NCBI RefSeq assembly: GCF_000148645.1
Contig: NC_014541.1
Location: 2,379,139 to 2,443,138, forward strand
Source: Ferrimonas balearica DSM 9799
GTDB taxonomy: Bacteria > Pseudomonadota > Gammaproteobacteria > Enterobacterales > Shewanellaceae
Direction: 5' to 3'
Length of the DNA stretch: 64,000 nt
Both the position numbers and the translations under genes were made by a program. Positions within the stretch are counted from its first letter, which is position 1. Each line of letters opens with the position of its first letter. The notes under the pieces were generated by a model. The model worked only from the letters and a program-made list of their open reading frames with translations, was not told where the DNA came from and ran no database searches. Of this stretch, positions 42,362 to 61,869 are shown one piece after another.

Positions 42362-44320
42362 TCAGCGCGCCAGCGCTGAACGCCGCAGTGGCGTGACCAA
42401 CGCCTGTTCAATCATCGGTTGCAGCAATGCCGCGCCGTCGGTAGAGAGGTGGTCGTCATCAAAGTAGTAGGAGCGCTCGGTACTGCCCACCAGGCACTTA
42501 CCCTGCTGGCATAAACGTTGGCTGGGGTCGATGATCACCACATCGGTGTGGCCCTCGCTGGCGTTGCGGATGATCTCATTGGTAAATGCCTGCAGCTGCT
42601 CACTCTTGCTGTGATCCACTGACGCCTGCGCCAGCTTGTCCGCGTCCACGTCCTCCCCCTCCAACGCCTGATAATAGAGCCGGGGCGGGATGTCATTCTG
42701 CAGCGGCGCCTGCAGCATCAACACCACCCGGATCCCCGCCTCGCGAAATGCGGACAGGGTTTTATCAATGCCGTAGCGGAACACCTCGATGGAGCGCTGC
42801 TGTGAGCCGGTTTCCTGGGCACTCATCTTCAGGAACTGCACATCCTTGCCCAGGTAGTCACCGTCGGTGTAGAGCGTCCAGCGGGCGGCAAGGAACACCG
42901 TATCCACCTTCTGCTCAATGGCGTAAGCCAGGGTTCGATCATTCAGCGCCTTGCAGTTTTTCTTGTGCTGATCCGAGCGCTCGGTGTGCACCGTGAGAAT
43001 GGGGGGACAACCGCTGTAACCGGCGTATTCCAGCACCACGTTATGGCGTCGTGCCATGCTCTCCAGCGCCGGAAGAATTGAGAACATATGTGAATCACCC
43101 AGCGCCAGCACCCGCTCTCCCCGGCCTGAGCCCAGCGAGCACACCGCCTGCTCCTCGTCTGACTTCACCGCCCGGTCAAAGCAATCGTAAGGTTTTACCT
43201 GCATCGAACTGGCCACCGACTCCGGCAGGTAGGCGCCTGCGTCTTTGGGCATATTCACCATCCAGACCAACGCCACAATCAGCACAGCGCCGTAGGTGGT
43301 GGCCCACACCCGTCCCATGCGGGAACACTCGATATAGCGGTAGGACAACCAGCCCAGCAGCACACTGGCAAGATAAAACAGCGGCAGCGCCTGGTAGACC
43401 CCGGGCTCCAGCTTGGCCATCTGGTACAGCATCACCACCACCACCCAATGCCACAGGTAGATCGAGTAAGACCAGGTGCCAATCCACTGGAACAGGCGGT
43501 TATTGGTGGCGATGCTGTCCTGACGGTTCGCCACCAGAATCAGCGCGGTGCCCAGCACCGGCCCCAGCGCCAGGGCACCGGGCCACGGCGTACTGGCTGA
43601 CACCCAGAAGCAGGTCAGGATGATCAGGGTCAGCCCCATCCACTCCAGCGTTTTCTGCCAGCGGGGTGAGATGGTCAGTGGATAGAGGTAAACCACCCCG
43701 CCGGCCAGCATCTCCCAGGCTCGGGTCGGCAACAGGAAGTAGGTCGGGTCAGGCCAGCGTTTGGCGGCATAGACGTTGAACAGAAAGCCCGCCACGGTCG
43801 CCAGCAACACCAGGCACTTCAGGCTCAGCAGCCCCATCAGTCTGGCCAGCCCCAGTAACACCAGCGGGTAGATCAGGTAAAACTGCCACTCCACAGAGAG
43901 CGACCAGGTGTGCAACAGCCACTTATCGTGGGCACCCAGATCGAAGTAGCCGGACTCTCGCCAGTACACGATGTTGGAGACAAACAGCAGACTGGCCGCG
44001 ATGTGGTCCAGCAGAGTCCGGTAGTCAAAGGGAGGCAGGTAGAGGTAGCCGAACAGGGCAAGAAAGGCGCACACCAACACCAACGCGGGGACAATGCGAC
44101 GGGCGCGAGCCCGATAGAATGCCCACAGGGAGAAGTTACCCTGCTCGAGTCCGCGAAAGATGATCCCGGTCATCAAGAAGCCGGAGATCACAAAAAAGAC
44201 ATCGACCCCGGCAAAGCCGCCGGGCATCCAGGCTGGGTCAAAATGGAAGATCACCACCACTAGCACGGCGACGGCTCTCAACCCATTGATGTCAGCCCGG
44301 ATCGGATGTGTGTGACGCAT
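42362..44320 (-). CDS. Acyltransferase 3 family protein with C-terminal SGNH domain (OafA type)
   Basis: A 652-residue inner-membrane protein. The N-terminal acyltransferase-3 domain has RADINGLRAVAVLVVVIFHF, FFVISGFLMTGIIF, RARRIVPAL and WSLSVEWQFYLIYPLVL with about 10 TM segments. A periplasmic SGNH domain follows, with VLALGDSHMFSILPAL (Ser) and YYFDDDHLSTDGA (Asp/His). Such fusions O-acetylate LPS O-antigen, capsule or other glycans. It is monocistronic, and the acceptor is unknown. Confidence 0.93.
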   Translation of the reverse strand: MRHTHPIRADINGLRAVAVLVVVIFHFDPAWMPGGFAGVDVFFVISGFLMTGIIFRGLEQGNFSLWAFYRARARRIVPALVLVCAFLALFGYLYLPPFDYRTLLDHIAASLLFVSNIVYWRESGYFDLGAHDKWLLHTWSLSVEWQFYLIYPLVLLGLARLMGLLSLKCLVLLATVAGFLFNVYAAKRWPDPTYFLLPTRAWEMLAGGVVYLYPLTISPRWQKTLEWMGLTLIILTCFWVSASTPWPGALALGPVLGTALILVANRQDSIATNNRLFQWIGTWSYSIYLWHWVVVVMLYQMAKLEPGVYQALPLFYLASVLLGWLSYRYIECSRMGRVWATTYGAVLIVALVWMVNMPKDAGAYLPESVASSMQVKPYDCFDRAVKSDEEQAVCSLGSGRGERVLALGDSHMFSILPALESMARRHNVVLEYAGYSGCPPILTVHTERSDQHKKNCKALNDRTLAYAIEQKVDTVFLAARWTLYTDGDYLGKDVQFLKMSAQETGSQQRSIEVFRYGIDKTLSAFREAGIRVVLMLQAPLQNDIPPRLYYQALEGEDVDADKLAQASVDHSKSEQLQAFTNEIIRNASEGHTDVVIIDPSQRLCQQGKCLVGSTERSYYFDDDHLSTDGAALLQPMIEQALVTPLRRSALAR

Positions 44321-52731: not shown

Positions 52732-53730
52732 TCAGGCTCGTTTGGCCTGACGCAGTTCATCCCGCTCGCGCTCCGACAGGAACGCGGCCTTAAGGCCATT
52801 CTCCTGCAGGGTTCGGCAGTCCTGTGCGGACAAACCGGCGGCCGGCGCGGCCACCTCATACTCATGGCCCAGATCGACCCCTTCGACACCCGGGTCGTCG
52901 GTGTTCAGCGTGACGGTGATGCCATGCTTCAGGAAGGTGGTGATCGGATGATCCGCCAGGTTTGCCACCGTGGTGGTCTGCACATTGGAGGTCAGGCAGG
53001 ATTCCAGTGCAATGCCGTGTTCCACCAGGTAATCCATCAGAGCCGGGTCCTGAACCGCTTTCACACCATGGCCAATCCGCTCAGCGCCCAACTCACGCAC
53101 CGCATGCCAGATGCTCTCCGGGCCCGCCGCTTCACCGGCGTGGATGGTCAGTCGGAAACCGGCATCACGGGCGATGCGGAAGTGGTCTTCAAACTGCGGC
53201 CCAGGTTGGCCCAGTTCATCACCGGCCAGGTCCATGGCGGTGAGCTTATCCCGAAATGCCAGGCAGGCCTGCAGCTCGGCATGGCAGGCGTCGGCGCCGA
53301 AGGTCCGGCTCAGGATACCAATCAGCTTGGCTTTCACCCCAAAGTCCCGGCAACCCGCCTGAACGCCATCCACCACCGCTTCCACGACACCCTCGGGTTC
53401 GAGACCGTGGGTCATGGCCATGTAGGCGGGGGAGAAACGCAGTTCGGCATAATCGATGCCATTGAGTTTCAGGTCTTCGGCGTTTTCATAGGCCACGCGG
53501 CGCACCGCGTCGTAATCCTTAAGAACGGCGACACCCCAGTCGAGCTTGGCCAGAAAGGTGACCAGGTCCGGGGCGTTATCGGTGATCTGCACATGGGGGA
53601 TCAATGCCTCAAAACGGTCGGCTGGCAGCACCAGGTTGTGCTGCTGTCCCAGTTCCCAGATCGTTCTGGGTCGGATATTGCCGTCGAGGTGGCGATGCAG
53701 ATCCACCAAAGGCAACGAAGTATCAATCAT
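52732..53730 (-). CDS. add: Adenosine deaminase
   Basis: A 332-residue zinc enzyme (E. coli Add has 333) that converts adenosine or deoxyadenosine to inosine. Motifs: [12 protein letters not shown] (zinc His pair), [11 protein letters not shown] (His/Glu), [10 protein letters not shown] (catalytic His), SNVQT and [12 protein letters not shown] (zinc/catalytic Asp pair). Ribosome-binding site AGGAAA, 7 bases before the ATG. I looked for an adenine riboswitch, as in some Vibrio add genes, and did not see one. Confidence 0.96.
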
Positions 53731-53967
53731 CTGGAGTTTCCTGTTGGTTTTTATGTTGCTCTACGGTGCGGGTGATCTGTCGTCGCCCTGATGTGTCACT
53801 ATAGAGTGCGCTCAGGATAACCGAAAGGTGATCAAATTGGCAGAATTGCCCCGCCATTCGTGCTGGCTAAGCCCTTGCTGTGACTGCGTTATTGGCCCGA
53901 TATCGTCGTCCTGACATCAGAGTTTCACTCAATCAGAGCCCCGCCTCGCCTGCCGTTATTCATCCCC

Positions 53968-55554
53968 TTGACTATATTCATTGACGGTCCTCCCGTTCAT
54001 CGGACTGTTTTTGTTGAACTTCAGTCGATTCAATTAAACGTTTATCCGGGGCATCCAGGTTTGGCATCAAAAATTCACTCTCTGGCACCACAGCACCCTC
54101 CTGGCCGCATCAGTCAGGCTGGTGTGCCGTTGTGCGTTGATCTGGATGGCACCCTGTTGAAGACCGACCTGCTGCTGGAGCAGCTGGTGGTCCTGCTGCG
54201 AACCCGGCCCATGGCGCTGTTCGGCCTGTTCTGGCTGGCGTTCACCCAGGGTTTGGCCGCGTTTAAGCGGTCGCTGGCCGATCAGGTCAATCTCAATGTC
54301 ACCACCCTGCCCTACCACAAGCCTCTGCTGCATTATCTGGAGCAGCAGGCCCGCAAAAGGCCACTGTGGCTCTGTACCGGTACCGACCAGCATCTGGCGG
54401 AGGCGGTGGCCCGGCACCTGCGGCTGTTTGATGGGGTGATCGGCTCCGACGGCACCACCAATATGACCGGTCACAACAAAGCAAAACACCTGCTGGAACG
54501 GTTTGGCTCTGCGGGCTTTGATTACATCGGCAACGAGAAGAAAGACCTGGCGATCTGGCAACACAGTCGCCGCGCCCTGGTGGTGACCCGCTCCCGCCAG
54601 TTTGCCCGGTGGGTGCGAAACCACGCCAACCTGCGGGGGGTCTTCTGGACCAAGCCTCTGGCCGCCAAGCACTACATCAAGGCGGTGCGGGCCCACCAGT
54701 GGAGCAAAAATGTCCTGATCCTGGTGCCGCTGCTGCTGGGCCACGGCAGTTTGCAGCCGCAAACCATTGGCCTGGCACTGGCCACGCTGGTGGCGTTCTG
54801 CGCCCTGGCCTCCGCCACCTATATCTTTAATGACCTGATGGATCTGGAATCCGACCGTCAGCACCATGAAAAGCGCAATCGACCCTACGCCTCCGGACAG
54901 ATCTCGCTGGCAACGGCGCTGGCGCTGATCCCGGCGCTGCTGATGGGCTGCCTGCTCATCGCCAGCCAACTGCCCACTGCCGTGGGCCTGACCATGCTGC
55001 TCTACGGTGTCGTCACCCTCTCCTACACCCTCTGGTTGAAACACCAGATGTTGATCGACGTGTTTGTGCTGGCCGGGCTGTATACCCTCAGGATCGTTAT
55101 CGGCATGATGATTGTGGGCGGCCCACCGTCGTTCTGGCTGATGGCCTTTTCGCTGTTCTTCTTCCTCAGTCTGGCGATGGCCAAGCGGGTCACCGAAATC
55201 ACCAATAAGTTGCGCCTGCAACCGAAGGTGGTGCGGGTGCGGGGCTATCAGCCTCAGGACAACCCCCTGCTCACCATGTACGGCAGCGGCTGCGGCATCG
55301 TCTCCACCCTGATCATCACCCTCTACATCAACAGCGAAAAGGTGCGCACCCTTTACGCCCTGCCGGAGCTGCTGTGGCTGCTCTGCCCGGTGCTGCTGTT
55401 CTGGCTGGCCCGGATCTGGATGCTGACCTACCGGGGCGAACTGCATGAAGACCCGGTGTTGTTTGCCATCCGGGACCGCACCAGCCAGGTGCTGATCGGG
55501 CTCAGTGCCCTGATTGTTCTGCTGGCCGCCAATGGGGAGGTGTGGTTTGGCTGA
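53968..55554 (+). CDS. HAD phosphatase-UbiA prenyltransferase fusion (DPPR synthase-like)
   Basis: Up to 528 residues; the start is uncertain (TTG 53968 gives the longest form, TTG 54061 is also possible). The N-terminal HAD domain begins at about residue 55 with CVDLDGTLLKTD. The C-terminal UbiA domain has RAHQWSKNVLILVPLLL and NDLMDLESDRQHHEKRNRPYASG. This is the two-part Asp motif in the form found in mycobacterial Rv3806c, which makes decaprenylphosphoryl-5-phosphoribose. About nine TM helices. The HAD part may remove the 5-phosphate, joining two steps in one protein. First gene of a six-gene operon. Confidence 0.87.
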   Translation: MTIFIDGPPVHRTVFVELQSIQLNVYPGHPGLASKIHSLAPQHPPGRISQAGVPLCVDLDGTLLKTDLLLEQLVVLLRTRPMALFGLFWLAFTQGLAAFKRSLADQVNLNVTTLPYHKPLLHYLEQQARKRPLWLCTGTDQHLAEAVARHLRLFDGVIGSDGTTNMTGHNKAKHLLERFGSAGFDYIGNEKKDLAIWQHSRRALVVTRSRQFARWVRNHANLRGVFWTKPLAAKHYIKAVRAHQWSKNVLILVPLLLGHGSLQPQTIGLALATLVAFCALASATYIFNDLMDLESDRQHHEKRNRPYASGQISLATALALIPALLMGCLLIASQLPTAVGLTMLLYGVVTLSYTLWLKHQMLIDVFVLAGLYTLRIVIGMMIVGGPPSFWLMAFSLFFFLSLAMAKRVTEITNKLRLQPKVVRVRGYQPQDNPLLTMYGSGCGIVSTLIITLYINSEKVRTLYALPELLWLLCPVLLFWLARIWMLTYRGELHEDPVLFAIRDRTSQVLIGLSALIVLLAANGEVWFG

Positions 55555-56842
55555 AACCTGTGATTACTTGCCTTGGGGCCATCTGCCTACGCCACCCCAG
55601 CGGGTTCACCGCCTTGATAGCCCGGAACAACTGAACACCCTCAGCGGCAGCCTGCTGCCGTTTGGGCTGGGACGCAGCTATGGCGACAGTTGCGTCAACA
55701 GCGAAGGGCTGCTGGTGGACACCCGCAGCTGGGACCACTATCTCAGTTTCCAGGACGGGCGATTGCGCTGTGAAGCGGGGGTCACCCTGGCGCAGGTGGT
55801 ACAGACCTTTGTGCCCAAAGGCTGGTTTCTGCCGGTCACTCCGGGCACCCAGTCGGTCACCATTGGCGGCGCCATCGCCAACGATGTCCACGGCAAAAAT
55901 CATCACAGCGCCGGCACCTTTGGCTGCCATGTCCGGGAGATCGGTCTTTGGCGCAGTGACCGGGGCGAAGTGGTGTGCTCCGCCGAACAGGAGCCAGAGC
56001 TGTTTGCTGCCACTATTGGCGGACTGGGGCTGACAGGACTGATTCTGTGGGCCGAGATCCAGCTTAAGCCCATCCCGGGCAATCAGGTGACGGTACAGAC
56101 CCAGCCCTTCCAGGATCTGGATGAATTTATCGCCTTGTCCGCCCGGCACCAGAACACCGAATACACCGTCGCCTGGCTCGATTGCTTCTCCGCCAAGGCC
56201 GGTCGATGTCGCGGGCTGTTTTACGCTGGCGAGCACAGCGCAGCCAGCAAGCCACTGCGCCAGGGGTGGCGGCCCAGAATGCCCTTTAATCTGCCCGGCG
56301 GGGTGATGAACCGCGCCACCATCTCGGCCTTTAACGAGCTCTACTACCGGCAAGGCTTGCGCCAACCCAACAAGCAGCAATCGCTGATCCCCTTCTTCTA
56401 CCCGCTCGACGGTATCGACCAGTGGCACCGGCTTTATGGCCGTAAGGGATTCTTCCAGTACCAGTGTGTCATGCCACTGGAAGCCAAGGCGGGCATGCAA
56501 TCGATTCTGGAGCGGATCCAATCCGCGGGCACAGGCTCCTTCCTCGGCGTGCTGAAGGTGTTTGCCGACAAGCCCTCTCCGGGCCTGCTGTCGTTCCCCC
56601 AGCCCGGCATCTGTCTGGCACTGGACCTGCCCAACCGGGGCGAGAGCACACTGAGCCTGATGCGGGAGCTGGACGCCATCCTGCGGGACCACAGTGGTCG
56701 ACTCTACCCCGCCAAGGATGCCCGAATGGACCCCAACGACTTCCAGCGCACCTACCCGGCGCTGGAGCCCTTCCGTCACCAATGCGATCCCCGTTTCAGC
56801 TCCGATTTCTGGCGCCGGGTCGATAATGGAGCCCGCTCATGA
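55547..56842 (+). CDS. DprE1-like FAD-dependent oxidase (polyprenylphosphoryl-ribose 2-oxidase)
   Basis: A 431-residue flavoenzyme (M. tuberculosis DprE1 has 461). PFGLGRSYGDSC, VTPGTQSVTIGGAIANDVHGKNHHSAGTFGCHV, ATIGGLGLTG, YHPLD-like FFYPLDGIDQWHRLYG, FFQYQCVMP and GRLYPAKDAR closely follow DprE1, including the active-site His and Lys. The DprE1 Cys387 position (ICVDFP) reads LALDLP here, so Ala. It would oxidise the 2-OH of polyprenylphosphoryl ribose. Start TTG 55547 has GGGGAGG 6 bases before it and overlaps the end of the previous gene. Confidence 0.88.
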   Translation: MAETCDYLPWGHLPTPPQRVHRLDSPEQLNTLSGSLLPFGLGRSYGDSCVNSEGLLVDTRSWDHYLSFQDGRLRCEAGVTLAQVVQTFVPKGWFLPVTPGTQSVTIGGAIANDVHGKNHHSAGTFGCHVREIGLWRSDRGEVVCSAEQEPELFAATIGGLGLTGLILWAEIQLKPIPGNQVTVQTQPFQDLDEFIALSARHQNTEYTVAWLDCFSAKAGRCRGLFYAGEHSAASKPLRQGWRPRMPFNLPGGVMNRATISAFNELYYRQGLRQPNKQQSLIPFFYPLDGIDQWHRLYGRKGFFQYQCVMPLEAKAGMQSILERIQSAGTGSFLGVLKVFADKPSPGLLSFPQPGICLALDLPNRGESTLSLMRELDAILRDHSGRLYPAKDARMDPNDFQRTYPALEPFRHQCDPRFSSDFWRRVDNGARS

Positions 56843-57573
56843 TCGTGTTGTTACTCGCCGCCACCTCCGCCATCGCCAAACCTCTTGCCCGGCACCACGC
56901 CGAACAGGGTGATGAGCTGATTCTGGTGGGGCGTAATCAAGCGAAACTGGAACGCCTTGCGGCCGATCTGACCGTCCGCGGCGCGGCACAGGTGCAAACC
57001 GAAGTGGCTGATCTGGCGGATCCGGAAGCGATCGCCATGCTGATGGCCCGCTGTTGCCCGGAAAACCGCGTACCGGACCTGACCTACTGCTTTCAGGGGG
57101 TATTGCCGGATCAGGCCCAATGCCAGAGCAGTCCAGAGGCCGCTCTGGACAGCATCCGCGTTAACGCGCTGGGTTTGATTGCACTGCTGACGCCGCTGGC
57201 CAACCGGCTGGAACAGGCCGGGCGCGGCACCCTGGTGGTGATCAGCTCCGTCGCAGGGGATCGCGGCCGCCAGAGCAACTACGTCTACGGCAGCGCCAAG
57301 GCCCTGCTCAACACCTTTCTTGAGGGGCTGCGCCATCGCCTCGCCCCAAAAGGCGTCACGGTGATCACCGTGAAACCCGGCTTTGTCGATACGCCGATGA
57401 CCGCCGAATTCAATAAGGGCCCGTTGTGGGCGCAACCGGACACCGTCGCCCAGGGCATTCTCAGTGCGGTGCGCCGCCGCCGAAGCGAGGTTTACGTGCC
57501 GGGATACTGGTGGGCCATCATGGCGCTGATCAAAGCCATTCCCCAACCCCTGTTTAACCGGCTGAAACTGTGA
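56839..57573 (+). CDS. DprE2-like short-chain dehydrogenase (2-keto reductase)
   Basis: A 244-residue classical SDR. An unusual nucleotide loop (LLAATSAIAKPLARHHAEQG) replaces the standard T-G-x3-G-x-G. The catalytic region is ISSVAGDRGRQSNYVYGSAKALLNTFLEGL, with Ser, Tyr and Lys. The end VKPGFVDTPMTAEFNKGPLWAQP, then IMALIKAIPQPLFNRLKL, matches DprE2 (Rv3791). With the DprE1-like enzyme it would epimerise polyprenylphosphoryl ribose to arabinose. It overlaps the DprE1-like gene by 4 bases (ATGA). Confidence 0.87.
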   Translation: MIVLLLAATSAIAKPLARHHAEQGDELILVGRNQAKLERLAADLTVRGAAQVQTEVADLADPEAIAMLMARCCPENRVPDLTYCFQGVLPDQAQCQSSPEAALDSIRVNALGLIALLTPLANRLEQAGRGTLVVISSVAGDRGRQSNYVYGSAKALLNTFLEGLRHRLAPKGVTVITVKPGFVDTPMTAEFNKGPLWAQPDTVAQGILSAVRRRRSEVYVPGYWWAIMALIKAIPQPLFNRLKL

Positions 57574-57580
57574 GGCGACC

Positions 57581-57949
57581 ATGGCGCACTACATCCCTGC
57601 CATACTGTTTACGGTATTCACCAATTTTCTCTCTCAGATCATGCTGAAAAAGGGCATGACGGTGATCGGTCCGGTGGAGCTCAATCCCACCGGGCTAAAA
57701 CAGATGGGCGCATCCGTTCTGCTCAACGGCTATGTCATGGGTGGTTTGCTGGTAATGGTGATCAGCATGGCCTCCCACCTCTACGTGCTGTCGAAAGTGG
57801 AAATCAGCTACGCCTATCCCTTCCTTGGCCTGTCCTTTGTGCTGACAACGGCCTACGGCTATTGGGTGCTGTCTGAGGGGGTCAACGCCTGGCGGGTGCT
57901 GGGTGTGCTGTTTATCTGTACCGGCGTAGCCATCGTGGCAAAAAACTGA
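57581..57949 (+). CDS. SMR/EamA-type four-TM transporter, candidate lipid-sugar flippase
   Basis: A 122-residue membrane protein with four TM helices of the SMR/EamA type: PAILFTVFTNFLSQIMLKKGM, LLNGYVMGGLLVMVISMASHLYVLSKVEISYAYPFLGLSFVLTTAYGYWVLSEGV and WRVLGVLFICTGVAIVAKN. The size and motifs recall ArnE/ArnF, which flip undecaprenyl-phospho-aminoarabinose. Inside this cluster a role in flipping polyprenyl-phospho-pentose is a reasonable inference. Starts 7 bases after the DprE2-like gene. Confidence 0.82.
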   Translation: MAHYIPAILFTVFTNFLSQIMLKKGMTVIGPVELNPTGLKQMGASVLLNGYVMGGLLVMVISMASHLYVLSKVEISYAYPFLGLSFVLTTAYGYWVLSEGVNAWRVLGVLFICTGVAIVAKN

Positions 57950-57961
57950 CAGGAGACTGGC

Positions 57962-58966
57962 ATGAGACACATCATTCTTGGCGGCGATGGTTTTCTCGGC
58001 ACCGAGTTGTGCAAAAAACTGATCGCCCGGCAGGAAACCGTGGTAATCGCCGACATTAAACGCAGCGAAGACTCGCCCATCTACCAGAGCCCGCTGGTCA
58101 GCTATGTTCCGGTGGATGTGTGCCAGGCGGACAGCCTGAAGGCGCTTGAGGTCACCCCAGAGGACCATGTTTACCACTTTGCCGCGCGCCTGCTGGTGCC
58201 CATTCTGCCCCGGGCTCAGCGCCAATCCTATTTCTGGACGGTGCTCTACCAGGGCACCGAAAACGTGCTGAACTACCTGAAGCAGCGCGGCGCGAAACGG
58301 TTGATCTACTTCACCACCGATATGGTGTACGGCCATACCCGTGAGCACCCCCGCACCGAGTCCCATCCCCGGGTCCCGCTGGGACCCTACGGCGAGGCCA
58401 AATACCAGAGTGAACTGCTGTGCGAACGCTACCGCCAGGAGGGCTTTGATATCACCATATTCCGGCCGCGACTGATCATCGGCCCGGGCCGGCTGGGGAT
58501 TCTGGAAAAGCTGTTTAAGCTGATCGACATGAACCTGCCGGTGCCCACCATCGGCAGTGGCAATAACCACTACCAGTTCATCTCGGTATCCGATTGTGCC
58601 GAAGCCTGCCTTGCCGCCATCGATGCGGGCTATCCCAACCGGGCCTTTAACCTCGGTTCCGCCAATCCGCCCCCCGTCAACGTTCTGCTCAGGCAACTGA
58701 TTGTGCACGCTCAAAGCCGTTCGATTCTGATGCCGACCCCGGCCTTCTTGGTCAAAGCGGTACTGGCCGGGCTGGACCGCATCAACTCACCGTTGATGGA
58801 CCCGGAGCAGTACCTGATTGCCGACGAAACCTGCGTACTGGATATCCAGGCCGGTAAAAAGGAGCTGGGGTGGGAACCTCAGGACAATGACCAGACCATG
58901 CTGATTGCCGCGTACGACAGTTACCGTAGCCAACAGCAGGATGACCCTGACCTGGAGCGCGCCTGA
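57962..58966 (+). CDS. NAD-dependent epimerase/dehydratase (extended SDR)
   Basis: A 334-residue extended short-chain dehydrogenase. NAD-binding GGDGFLG (GxxGxxG) at residues 8-14, DVCQADSLKALEV, FTTDMVYG and catalytic YGEAK, followed by FRPRLIIGPGRLG and NHYQFISVSDCAEACLAAID. It likely acts on a nucleotide- or lipid-linked sugar. It is not a counterpart of any core step of arabinose-lipid formation, so it may tailor the product. Ribosome-binding site AGGAGA, 6 bases before the ATG. Confidence 0.87.
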   Translation: MRHIILGGDGFLGTELCKKLIARQETVVIADIKRSEDSPIYQSPLVSYVPVDVCQADSLKALEVTPEDHVYHFAARLLVPILPRAQRQSYFWTVLYQGTENVLNYLKQRGAKRLIYFTTDMVYGHTREHPRTESHPRVPLGPYGEAKYQSELLCERYRQEGFDITIFRPRLIIGPGRLGILEKLFKLIDMNLPVPTIGSGNNHYQFISVSDCAEACLAAIDAGYPNRAFNLGSANPPPVNVLLRQLIVHAQSRSILMPTPAFLVKAVLAGLDRINSPLMDPEQYLIADETCVLDIQAGKKELGWEPQDNDQTMLIAAYDSYRSQQQDDPDLERA

Positions 58967-58969
58967 TCG

Positions 58970-60124
58970 ATGCTGATTCAGAACCCACCACAACGAATCG
59001 ATTGGCTGCATGTTGCCAGCGTACCCGCTCTGTTGATGCTGTTTTCGCTGGTGGGGTTGGTGATGCTGATGAACACCCAGCCCTTTTCGTTTGGCGATGC
59101 CGAGCGCTACCTGGCCATGGCGCAATCCCCCTGGGTGTTTACCGACGCGCCCTGGGGCTACCGCATCGGGGTGCCCTACCTGGCGGCGTGGTTAAGCCCG
59201 CTATTTAACGACATTCACAGTGCGTTTTTTGCGCTTCAACTGCTGTTCTATGCGACGTTCCTGACCACCCTGTATCTGTGGCTGCGTTGGGGACTGAAGC
59301 TCAATATCCTGGCCTGCGCCTGCGCCTGCCTGCTGTTTATCTTCTCCTATCCCGGCGTCTACAACCTGCATAACAGTGTCCACGTCGGACTGGCTGAGCA
59401 CCTGGGCATTCTGCTGGGGTGCATCGCCATCTACCACCGCTCGTTCCGAAGCCTGCTGCTGTTGCTGGTGGTCACCGCGTTTGTGAAAGAGAACATCGGC
59501 TTGTTGCTGATCCCCACCTGGGCCTGGGTGACCTACCGCAGCGAAGGTTGGCGGCCGGCGCTGTTAACCACCCTGCCCCTGCTGGCCGTCTTTTTCTCGC
59601 TCTACCTGCTGCTGCGTTCCGGCGTGCTGTTCCAGGGCGGCATCGATCTTTCCACCTACACCGGTTTCTACAATGCGGCCTGGCTGGCCTACGTCTACCA
59701 GTATTGGGGCGGGGCATTGGGCGCCATCAAGCTGGTGGTGGCCACCTTCGGTCCGCTCTGGCTGACCTACGCATTGGCGATGTGGCAGAACCCGGGCCAG
59801 CAACGGCTGCGTTGGATGGGCATATTGCCTTTGCTGGCCTGTGGCCAGATCCTATTGGCCACCGACGTTTGGCGGATGGTGGGGCTGGGCGCCCCGATGG
59901 TGATTGCGCTGTCGGCCGTGGTGATGGACCGGTTGCCGCGCCACAGTTGCGTGGTGCTGGTGTGCCTGAACACCCTCTATTTCCTGGCCTTCAACAATAC
60001 CCTGAAAACCCTGATGGCCGCCCTGTTTGCGCTGGCGTTTGTGGCGCTGTGGTTCTACCGCCAGCGCCTGAACTTCTCCCTTGACCAGCCGCAGCTGGAC
60101 CCTCAGCTCGATAAGTTCTCCTGA
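58970..60124 (+). CDS. Polytopic membrane protein, possible GT-C-type glycosyltransferase
   Basis: A 384-residue protein with about 10 TM helices. After TM1 a loop reads TQPFSFGDAERYLAMAQSPWVFTDAPWGYRIGVPYLAAWLSP. An acidic Asp-x-Glu pair (GDAER) in the first periplasmic loop is the usual GT-C metal/donor site. A charged loop (FVKENIGLLLIP) follows later. As last gene of the cluster it is a good candidate for transferring the lipid-linked sugar to an acceptor. It starts 3 bases after the epimerase gene. Its last 22 bases overlap the convergent ABC exporter gene. Function is inferred, not recognised with certainty. Confidence 0.75.
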   Translation: MLIQNPPQRIDWLHVASVPALLMLFSLVGLVMLMNTQPFSFGDAERYLAMAQSPWVFTDAPWGYRIGVPYLAAWLSPLFNDIHSAFFALQLLFYATFLTTLYLWLRWGLKLNILACACACLLFIFSYPGVYNLHNSVHVGLAEHLGILLGCIAIYHRSFRSLLLLLVVTAFVKENIGLLLIPTWAWVTYRSEGWRPALLTTLPLLAVFFSLYLLLRSGVLFQGGIDLSTYTGFYNAAWLAYVYQYWGGALGAIKLVVATFGPLWLTYALAMWQNPGQQRLRWMGILPLLACGQILLATDVWRMVGLGAPMVIALSAVVMDRLPRHSCVVLVCLNTLYFLAFNNTLKTLMAALFALAFVALWFYRQRLNFSLDQPQLDPQLDKFS

Positions 60125-61869
60125 GGGTCGGCCATCAGTTGCAGCTCCGCGAGTTGACGGTACAGCGGACTGCTCTGCAACAGGCTGCGGTGGTCTCCGA
60201 TTGCCCGTATCTCGCCCTGTTCCAGCACCACCAATCGGTCGGCGTTCACCACCGTGGCCAAACGGTGGGCAATCACCAGCGTTGTGCGACCCGCCATCAG
60301 CTGCTCCAGTCCCGCCTGCACCGCCGCTTCGTTCGCCGCATCCAGCGCGGAAGTGGCCTCATCCAGCAGCAGGATGGGACGGTCCGCCAGCAGCGCCCGG
60401 GCAATGGCAATGCGCTGTTTCTGGCCACCGGACAATCGCACTCCCCGCTCACCCAGGTGGGTGTGATACCCCTGTGGCAGCGTCGCCACAAACTCGTGGG
60501 CACGGGCGGCGCGACAGGCCTGCTCCACCTCCGCCTCACTGGCGTCAGGGCGGCCGTAACGCACGTTCTCCAACACCGAATCGGCAAAGATCACCGGCTC
60601 CTGAGAGACCATCGCAAACTGGCGCCGCCACTGTACCGGGTCGCACTCGTGGCTGCTGACACCATCGAGCAACACCTGCCCCTGGTCAGGCCGGTAAAAC
60701 AGTTTCAGCAACTGGAACAGCGTGGTTTTGCCGGCGCCACTGGGGCCCACCAGCGCCACCCGTTCACCAGGCTTGATGGAGAGGGATAGCGCCTTCAGCA
60801 CCGGCTGGTCCGGCGCCATCGGGTAGGCGAACGACACGTCGTCAAACTGCAGAGCGCCCCGCAGAGGCATGGGGAGTGGCTTCGGAGCCTGGGGCGCGAC
60901 AATGGCTGGTGTAACGGTCATCAGTTCCCGCAGCCGCTCTGTCGCTCCGGCGGCCCGCATGATTTCACCTATCACTTCACTTAACGTCGCGACGGCGCCC
61001 GCCACCAGCACCGCGTAGAACATAAAGGCGGTCAGTTGGCCGGCACTGAGTCCGCCCGCCATCACCTCCAACGCCCCCATCCAGCTGACCAGGGTAATGG
61101 CGGTCACAGACAGCAGCATCACCGCGGCGATCAGCCCAGAACGATAGCGGATACGGCGCACCGCGGTCGCCATCACCGACTCCACATCGGCCCGGAACGC
61201 CCGATTATCCAGCGGTTCATGGCCATAGGCCTGCACCGTCTGGATCTCATGCAGGGTTTCATCCACCCGGGCACCCAGGTCCGCCACCCGGTCCTGACTG
61301 TCCTTGCTCAATCGCCGCACCCGCCTTCCGAAAAACAGGATGGGGCCCAGCACCACCGGGACAGCCACGGCCACCGCTAGAGTGAGTTGCCAGCTGGTGA
61401 TTGCCATCATGACTCCACCGCCGACCAACGTCAGCGCAGAACGCAGTGCCATCGACAGACTCATCCCCACCACGGTTTGCAACACGGTGGTGTCGGCGGT
61501 AAAGCGGGAGATCACCTCACCGGTGCGCTGCTCAGCAAAGAACGAGGGGGGCAGTTGCAGCAGATGGTCGAACACCGCTTTACGCAGATCAGCGCTGACC
61601 CGCTCGCCCAGCCAGGTCATCAGGTAAAAGCGCACAAACACCGCGACCGCCCCCACCAGGTTGATCAACAGCACCAGTAACATCAGCCGGTTCAGTGCTG
61701 CCGGATCACCGGACAGGAACCCCTCATCCACCAGCAGGCGAACCCCCTGCCCCAGCACCAGCCAGGAGGCGGAACCCACCGCCAGCGCCAGCAACGCCAA
61801 CAGCACCCGGGGACGGTGCGGACGGAGGTATTCCCATAACCAGGGCAGAATGGCGGTGCGGGTTTGCAT
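60103..61869 (-). CDS. MsbA-related ABC exporter (fused TM and ATPase domains)
   Basis: A 588-residue half-transporter with six TM helices and a C-terminal ATPase: Walker A GPSGAGKTT, Q-loop VSQEPVIFADSV, signature LSGGQKQR, Walker B ILLLDEATSALD and switch His in VIAHRLATV. It resembles the MsbA-related subgroup of lipid/drug exporters. It would act as a homodimer. Convergent with, and slightly overlapping, the sugar cluster, so co-function is not implied. Confidence 0.92.
   Translation of the reverse strand: MQTRTAILPWLWEYLRPHRPRVLLALLALAVGSASWLVLGQGVRLLVDEGFLSGDPAALNRLMLLVLLINLVGAVAVFVRFYLMTWLGERVSADLRKAVFDHLLQLPPSFFAEQRTGEVISRFTADTTVLQTVVGMSLSMALRSALTLVGGGVMMAITSWQLTLAVAVAVPVVLGPILFFGRRVRRLSKDSQDRVADLGARVDETLHEIQTVQAYGHEPLDNRAFRADVESVMATAVRRIRYRSGLIAAVMLLSVTAITLVSWMGALEVMAGGLSAGQLTAFMFYAVLVAGAVATLSEVIGEIMRAAGATERLRELMTVTPAIVAPQAPKPLPMPLRGALQFDDVSFAYPMAPDQPVLKALSLSIKPGERVALVGPSGAGKTTLFQLLKLFYRPDQGQVLLDGVSSHECDPVQWRRQFAMVSQEPVIFADSVLENVRYGRPDASEAEVEQACRAARAHEFVATLPQGYHTHLGERGVRLSGGQKQRIAIARALLADRPILLLDEATSALDAANEAAVQAGLEQLMAGRTTLVIAHRLATVVNADRLVVLEQGEIRAIGDHRSLLQSSPLYRQLAELQLMADPQENLSS

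Follow-up and report, generated by a model that had tools for sequence, protein, structure and literature searches.

Gene content of the locus

A cassette of six plus-strand genes, g1–g6 (positions 53968–60124), that is probably a donor-and-transfer system for a pentofuranose was found in the 64,000-nucleotide stretch of Ferrimonas balearica DSM 9799 analysed in this study (hereafter the window). The genome is a single contig of 4,279,159 bases, of which the window covers positions 2379139–2443138; the same length and a GC content of 60.2% are given in the part of the type-strain genome report used here (PMC3035368). All six open frames are present at the coordinates and on the strand listed below, with intergenic gaps of at most 12 bp and, taking the listed starts, overlaps of 4 and 41 bp. 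The coordinates and the family searches agree with the original prediction, made from the letters of this DNA, of six co-directional and tightly spaced genes encoding HAD–UbiA, DprE1-like, DprE2-like, SMR, extended short-chain dehydrogenase/reductase (SDR) and polytopic products. The six genes, with the evidence for each, are as follows.

53968..55554, +, g1: fusion of a HAD domain (phosphoribose phosphatase-like) and a UbiA domain (polyprenyl-phosphate phosphoribosyltransferase-like); Pfam, NCBIfam, PDB, conserved residues
55514..56842, +, g2: DprE1-like FAD oxidase; Pfam, NCBIfam, PDB, tree
56839..57573, +, g3: DprE2-like SDR reductase; Pfam, NCBIfam, PDB
57581..57949, +, g4: ArnE/ArnF-like SMR protein of 122 amino acids, candidate flippase; Pfam, NCBIfam
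57962..58966, +, g5: extended SDR of the epimerase/dehydrogenase family; Pfam, NCBIfam, PDB, motifs, census
58970..60124, +, g6: orphan polytopic protein of 384 amino acids, candidate GT-C glycosyltransferase; hydropathy

Two of the starts are uncertain: for g1, GTG 54013 or TTG 54061 is as plausible as TTG 53968, and the true start probably lies further downstream than 53968; for g2, ATG 55532 is as plausible as TTG 55514. A scan for promoters and terminators gave no excess over shuffled sequences (counts of 1 versus 1.6 and 5 versus 5.2).

The early enzymes

The g1 protein matched UbiA in Pfam (3.4e-22) and the NCBIfam model PRK08238 (582 bits, above the cut-off of 351); its HAD match was weak (24.3 against a cut-off of 27), and the DLDGT motif, which holds the nucleophilic Asp of HAD proteins, is present. 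When the UbiA half was scored, phosphoribosyltransferase models gave 132, 120 and 101 bits, the heme o synthase model 35 bits and models of 4-hydroxybenzoate enzymes 28–30 bits. The only structures matched in the PDB were entries of the Rv3806c type, i.e. decaprenylphosphoryl-5-phosphoribose synthase (DPPRS), comprising two distinct sequences (4.4e-22), and no other UbiA structure was matched. By sequence, the UbiA half of g1 groups with the Rv3806c-type phosphoribosyltransferases and not with quinone or heme enzymes.

To place g1 among its relatives, a one-genome-per-species scan was made with a six-row alignment of the g1 family, which gave at least 543 loci. The best 80 of these, the window, L013–L017 and L100 form a census of 87 near relatives of g1. 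The Mesorhizobium, Aminobacter, Roseibium/Labrenzia, Nitratireductor, Xanthomonas and Dyella loci are close kin and not independent, and L160 was not counted, being identical to L016 wherever the DNA of the two was compared. The motifs NDxxDxxxD and RxxE are invariant across the six aligned rows, and the HAD Asp is kept in five of them, the sixth row being truncated. In the census, the patterns NDxxDxxxD and [KH]Rxx[ED], which are looser than the six-row alignment, occur in 87 of 87 proteins, and the HAD pattern in 84, the misses being L017 (a truncated frame), L041 and L067. Residues of Citrobacter ORF15 that were mutated or placed in the active site in the relevant part of a recent study (N247, D248, D251, D255, R366, E369 and D18; Kelly et al., 2024, PMC11127046) all have counterparts in the g1 alignment.

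The original prediction would have failed if the UbiA domain had grouped with quinone or heme prenyltransferases. The sequence part of this comparison was run, and a rival reading in which g1 is such a prenyltransferase and the remaining genes are unrelated oxidoreductases, for which UbiA superfamily membership alone speaks, is hardly credible: the best DPPRS model scored about four times as high as the heme o and 4-hydroxybenzoate models, and a DprE1 homolog lies in 66 of the 87 census loci. It was rejected on the model scores and the PDB matches.

The g2 protein has the Pfam domain FAD_binding_4, and its best PDB match is mycobacterial DprE1 (1.6e-71). Counterparts of the flavin-site and catalytic DprE1 positions, which we take to be numbered Y60, H132 and K418, are kept in all 66 aligned DprE1 rows. 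At the counterpart of mycobacterial DprE1 Cys387, presumably the cysteine of the tuberculosis enzyme that covalent inhibitors bind, g2 has Ala; the 66 DprE1 proteins have Ala (51) or Thr (15) there. The g3 protein belongs to the SDR family, scoring 296 bits against PRK07102 (cut-off 267), and its best PDB match is the DprE2 chain of a DprE1–DprE2 entry (1.6e-22). As far as homology and active-site residues go, the earlier assignment of g1–g3 to a route from phosphoribosyl pyrophosphate (PRPP) through polyprenyl-phospho-ribose to polyprenyl-phospho-arabinose was borne out.

The proposed pathway and known systems

The remaining candidates for flipping and transfer are g4 and g6. The likeness of g4 is to the ArnE/F lipid-sugar flippase subunits, and no MATE family member was matched among the six cassette genes. 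By hydropathy, g6 has ten hydrophobic segments, the first of which is followed by a loop of 51 residues. The GT-C enzymes of pentofuranose systems are recognized by 7–13 membrane helices and a small outer domain after helix 1, in the description drawn on here (Kelly et al., 2024, PMC11127046). The same description covers three-component systems in which lipid-linked ribofuranose is made from PRPP by a HAD–UbiA fusion, epimerized by an SDR or by DprE1/E2, flipped, and transferred by a GT-C enzyme, with DprE1/E2 homologs assigned to arabinofuranose.

We infer for the Ferrimonas cassette a series of reactions of this kind, including the lipid, the sugar, the flipping step, a GT-C function for g6 and whatever part g5 may play. 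The UbiA half of g1 would transfer ribose-5-phosphate from PRPP to polyprenyl (probably undecaprenyl) phosphate, and the HAD half would remove the 5-phosphate. Inversion at C2 by oxidation and re-reduction, through g2 and g3, would then yield polyprenyl-phospho-arabinofuranose. The g5 protein may carry out a further step dependent on nicotinamide adenine dinucleotide, perhaps on the lipid-linked sugar before flipping; g4 would bring the lipid-sugar to the periplasmic side, and g6, as a GT-C type enzyme, would pass the sugar on to a glycan or a protein at the surface. The observations from which this is drawn are gene order, homology, conserved catalytic residues, conservation of the modules and exchange of the last gene. 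On these grounds, we put the probability that the cassette is a three-component pentofuranose glycosylation system of the Citrobacter/mycobacterial kind at roughly 0.7.

Several results weigh against this assignment. In the NCBI equivalog models, g1 scored 132 bits for decaprenyl-phosphate phosphoribosyltransferase (NF008978; cut-off 207), g2 351 bits for DprE1 (NF053785; cut-off 500) and g3 176 bits for DprE2 (NF053786; cut-off 250); because all three fall under the cut-offs, g1–g3 would act like the mycobacterial enzymes as inferred relatives and not as certified members. The counterparts of R366 and E369 carry little weight, because the ORF15 variants R366A and E369A stayed active according to the part of the study cited (Kelly et al., 2024, PMC11127046). 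The matches of g4 to the ArnF and ArnE models (8.6e-9 and 3.4e-7) are both below cut-off. Finally, g6 had no match in Pfam, NCBIfam or the PDB, a profile comparison with the other partner proteins gave a best probability of 25% (the rest at most 0.5%), and its candidacy as a GT-C type glycosyltransferase comes from hydropathy.

Of the known systems, ORF12–ORF15 of Citrobacter youngae O1/O2, as far as the cited parts of the paper describe them (PMC11127046), resemble the cassette in the N-terminal HAD domain fused to UbiA, the lipid-linked pentofuranose, the SDR or DprE1/E2 epimerases and the polytopic last enzyme. The cassette differs in having the SMR protein g4 in place of the MATE protein ORF14, in having DprE1/E2 and a further SDR together, and in a last enzyme of 384 amino acids compared with 652 (GT136), size alone being compared; furthermore, no O-antigen locus was seen adjoining it. 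An SMR protein for the MATE flippase, a further SDR and a last gene outside known families are what sets the cassette apart from these published systems. The mycobacterial decaprenylphosphoryl-arabinose pathway (Rv3806c, Rv3807c, DprE1, DprE2) has, by homology, the same order of reactions; however, it uses the phosphatase Rv3807c where the cassette has a fused HAD domain, and it differs in the equivalog scores and the Cys387 counterpart noted above. In rhizobial Nod-factor arabinosylation, noeC, noeH and noeO account for three of four donor steps, and noeCHOP has a separate candidate phosphatase, noeN, and the transferase noeP, in contrast to the HAD fusion of the cassette (from the part of PMC5080398 used here). 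PSPA7_6245–6251 and TfpW of Pseudomonas paraeruginosa share a UbiA-family enzyme and an arabinofuranose donor with it, according to the portion cited (PMC12369383).

Conservation and exchangeability of the cassette

A mycobacterial-type cluster in a gammaproteobacterium had been presented as exceptional, which did not hold. The relatives of g1 in the at least 543 loci are common in Pseudomonadota, 81 plasmid records contain g1 relatives (E 1e-40), and systems of this logic were published in 2024 (Kelly et al., PMC11127046, in the parts cited), so that a gammaproteobacterial pathway of this kind was already known. The patterns of the census loci were assigned by E-value limits set in the script. 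DprE1 and DprE2 occur with a flavin amine-oxidase-like module in 24 of the 87 loci, alone in 19, and with SMR and g5 in seven (the window, two genomes of the same genus, L020, L048, L059 and L062); DprE1, SMR, g5 and an aminotransferase occur without DprE2 in 14. Eight loci have SMR only, 11 have none of these, and four have single patterns (L031, L042, L058 and L090). The flippase candidates therein vary by kind (SMR, GtrA or LPG-synthase-like), and the polytopic partner proteins also differ between loci; the early enzymes are constant. The order g1-g2-g3-g4-g5 is found in seven loci, four of them in other Gammaproteobacteria, and the seven window-type DprE1 proteins form one supported group (98/87) in a 66-row tree.

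The cassette lies between two minus-strand genes, and most of the interval between them is missing from a sister genome, G003.

52732..53730, −: flanking adenosine deaminase (add); family search
60103..61869, −: flanking MsbA-related ABC exporter; family search
53845..60120, no strand: stretch without a counterpart in G003 (95 bp there); blastn of both flanks

In G003, add and the MsbA-related exporter are adjacent, its add protein being 89% identical to that of the window, and blastn of both flanks to L158 sets 6,276 bp of the window (53845–60120) against 95 bp. In G004, all six genes lie in the same order between the same two flanks. In G006, g1–g5 are found on the opposite side of add, and a different polytopic protein, of 556 residues and with a DUF6798 match, takes the place of g6. 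Counting the present genome, three of the 14 genomes from the genus have a g1 protein of more than 50% identity. A homolog of g6 was found in two of 97 relatives; among 369 genomes of its class, the present genome alone gave a match, and the plasmid records searched gave none; besides the own genome, G004 is the only one of the genomes searched that has it. The six-gene order in G004 and the g1–g5 order in G006 and the four loci of other Gammaproteobacteria are more than chance would give, and a transferase specific for its acceptor would be expected to be swapped in this way while the rest of the set stays. The cassette is real and exchangeable, would probably make and transfer a pentofuranose donor, and contains a conserved additional SDR as well as a last enzyme that is an orphan; its value is that it is small and complete and lies in a cultured, sequenced type strain.

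As a separate observation, a PRK07233 flavin amine-oxidase-like protein and a 312-residue SDR, mostly with GtrA, stand beside DprE1/E2 in 24 loci (e.g. L016:888-4513); a 25th, L090, ends at a contig edge.

The additional SDR

The original prediction gave the extended SDR no role; we regard g5 as the most interesting part of the cassette. It matches Epimerase in Pfam (5.7e-37) and has YxxxK, a glycine-rich nucleotide-binding start and the motif TTDMVYG. It directly follows g4, never more than 96 bp behind it, in 21 of the 22 census loci that contain it (the exception being L031), and occurs with DprE2 in seven loci and with an aminotransferase replacing DprE2 in 14. Between these two sets g5 is the best conserved common gene, with a mean identity of 55%, compared with 42% for g1, 46% for g2 and 47% for g4. 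The C2 reductase is an unlikely identity for g5, which is present both where C2 would be reduced and where, as argued below, it would be aminated. A role as a C2 ketoreductase replacing DprE2, the simplest reading, was also set aside on the loci themselves: L058, L161, L162 and L163 have DprE1 and the aminotransferase with no g5 match in the available stretch, and the window has DprE2 as well.

Two other roles were considered. In the first, g5 would serve the acceptor by acting on a nucleotide sugar or some other sugar of the envelope, and plain D-arabinofuranose would be transferred. Its nearest named PDB relatives are nucleotide-sugar epimerases and dehydratases, and two Sinorhizobium plasmids carry a relative of 27–30% identity, together with a GMC oxidoreductase and an SMR gene, at distances of about 5 and 12 kb from g1. 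However, acceptors should differ between Rhizobiales and Ferrimonas, as the polytopic partners do, and yet g5 is the best conserved gene and keeps its place close behind g4. We hold this role as possible, though somewhat short of an even chance. In the second, g5 would be a second lipid-stage epimerase, acting at C3 like Citrobacter ORF13 (ribo to xylo), and, C2 having been inverted by g2 and g3, the donor would be D-lyxofuranose. One SDR, ORF13, sets xylofuranose versus ribofuranose in the part of the Citrobacter study cited (Kelly et al., 2024, PMC11127046), the YxxxK and nucleotide-binding motifs would suit such an enzyme, its occurrence with either DprE2 or the aminotransferase means that it is not simply a C2 reductase, and its high conservation would fit a substrate, the pentose-lipid, that both sets share. 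The comparison with ORF13 is nevertheless drawn from described function, and an Azospirillum protein 45% alike to g5 has no g1 match within 21 kb around it. A C3-epimerase is unlikely, and the acceptor role is the more likely of the two.

A further SDR beside DprE1/E2 would allow a doubly epimerized sugar, lyxofuranose. The keto-sugar lipid of DprE1-type enzymes may be a branch point from which bacteria derive several different pentofuranose donors, with a second inversion by g5 leading here to polyprenyl-phospho-D-lyxofuranose, for use by a transferase of a new GT-C family; we consider this an improbable outcome. Lyxofuranose occurs in no solved carbohydrate structure, according to a statement in the part of the paper cited (Kelly et al., 2024, PMC11127046). 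Should g5 indeed act on a lipid-linked pentose, more pentofuranose donors would be known from bacteria. Among Erwinia-family genomes, two of 295 match a Yersinia relative of g1: L063 (Erwinia), which by eye has no adjoining SDR, and a DprE1/E2 locus.

The acceptor

The original prediction left the acceptor open and saw no pilin nearby, and the searches are in keeping with this: PF00114 gave no match in the genome, pilin families outside PF00114 not having been sought, and no pilin was present among the family-searched flanking proteins. That the cassette arabinosylates a type IV pilin, as in P. paraeruginosa, is suggested by the similar early enzymes of that system (PMC12369383; Kelly et al., 2024, PMC11127046; both in part). 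It is nonetheless very improbable given these pilin results, and the cassette, unlike the Pseudomonas locus, is flanked by add and an ABC exporter; pilin was set aside as the acceptor on the lack of a PF00114 match. Three matches to Wzy_C (ligase/polymerase type) lie in the genome far from the window, and a lipopolysaccharide or other polysaccharide acceptor is therefore possible. By eye, no glycan genes were noticed over the next 20 kb outside the window, no family search having been made there. Among ten window proteins away from the cluster that were family-searched, the only glycan-related one was an acyltransferase-3/SGNH protein (O-acetyltransferase type; 42362–44320, about 10 kb from the cassette).

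The G006 cassette (L014:3100-9213) adjoins three tandem flagellin genes, a Maf-like gene (MptE-like domain) and an acyltransferase. Modification of flagellin is generally regarded as a cytoplasmic process. On this ground, and with no flagellin match in L013, flagellin was rejected as the acceptor and the arrangement taken as an oddity.

A predicted aminotransferase branch in related loci

The main surprise lies in the comparison that the cassette opens. DprE2 is present in 50 of the 66 DprE1 loci, and none of these 50 has a class III aminotransferase; all 15 of the testable loci without DprE2 have one. L042, whose contig stops 1.4 kb past g1, does not enter this count. The loci concerned are listed below.

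Class III PLP (pyridoxal phosphate) aminotransferase beside DprE1, in the place of DprE2: L044, L056, L058, L068, L069, L072, L073, L077, L078, L087, L089, L091, L096, L098 and L100 (e.g. L068:14366-15829)

The absence of DprE2 was checked genome-wide in 13 genomes, and in the available stretch for L058, L100 and five later loci. With the NCBI DprE2 model, 12 of the 13 whole genomes had no match above 71.4 bits, and G110 had one of 190 bits away from the locus. As background, Yersinia and Erwinia genomes, which have no DprE1 at the locus, gave 72.6 and 66.1 bits. The four DprE2-bearing genomes searched gave 151–180 bits; no score among the 19 genomes was as high as the cut-off (250), and some SDR match was obtained in 13 of the 14 control genomes. 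A search with the aminotransferase (E 1e-150) matched two of 385 alphaproteobacterial genomes, one already in the census, and four of 369 gammaproteobacterial genomes; on plasmids, one record was matched (E 1e-120), also already in the census. Each of the five new genomes has a DprE1 homolog immediately upstream of the aminotransferase; in each case the available stretch, which ends at a contig edge on at least one side, gave no DprE2 match. In two of them, from different families (L163:5597-8488, + strand; L164:2844-5714, − strand), the DprE1 homolog and the aminotransferase share one open frame of 963 and 956 amino acids, respectively, an internal start being possible.

The aminotransferase label requires three changes in the first DprE1 tree (three forced by starred branches) and four in the second (two forced); from the latter L065 was dropped owing to its long branch, and L042 carried no label there. 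The DprE1 proteins of the five later loci form a long branch of their own in the second tree. On the simplest reading, amination of the 2-keto lipid would take the place of its reduction, and it is rather probable that this branch leads to a lipid-linked 2-amino-2-deoxy-pentofuranose. If true, this second fate of the DprE1 keto-lipid would give a new class of lipid-linked sugar donor.

A further arrangement was seen on two Sinorhizobium plasmids (L165:9824-17741 and L166:15824-30184), in which a HAD–UbiA gene occurs with an SDR, a large unannotated protein, a GMC oxidoreductase, an SMR protein and a distant relative of g5, with no DprE1/E2 match; here, another flavin oxidase perhaps takes the place of DprE1.

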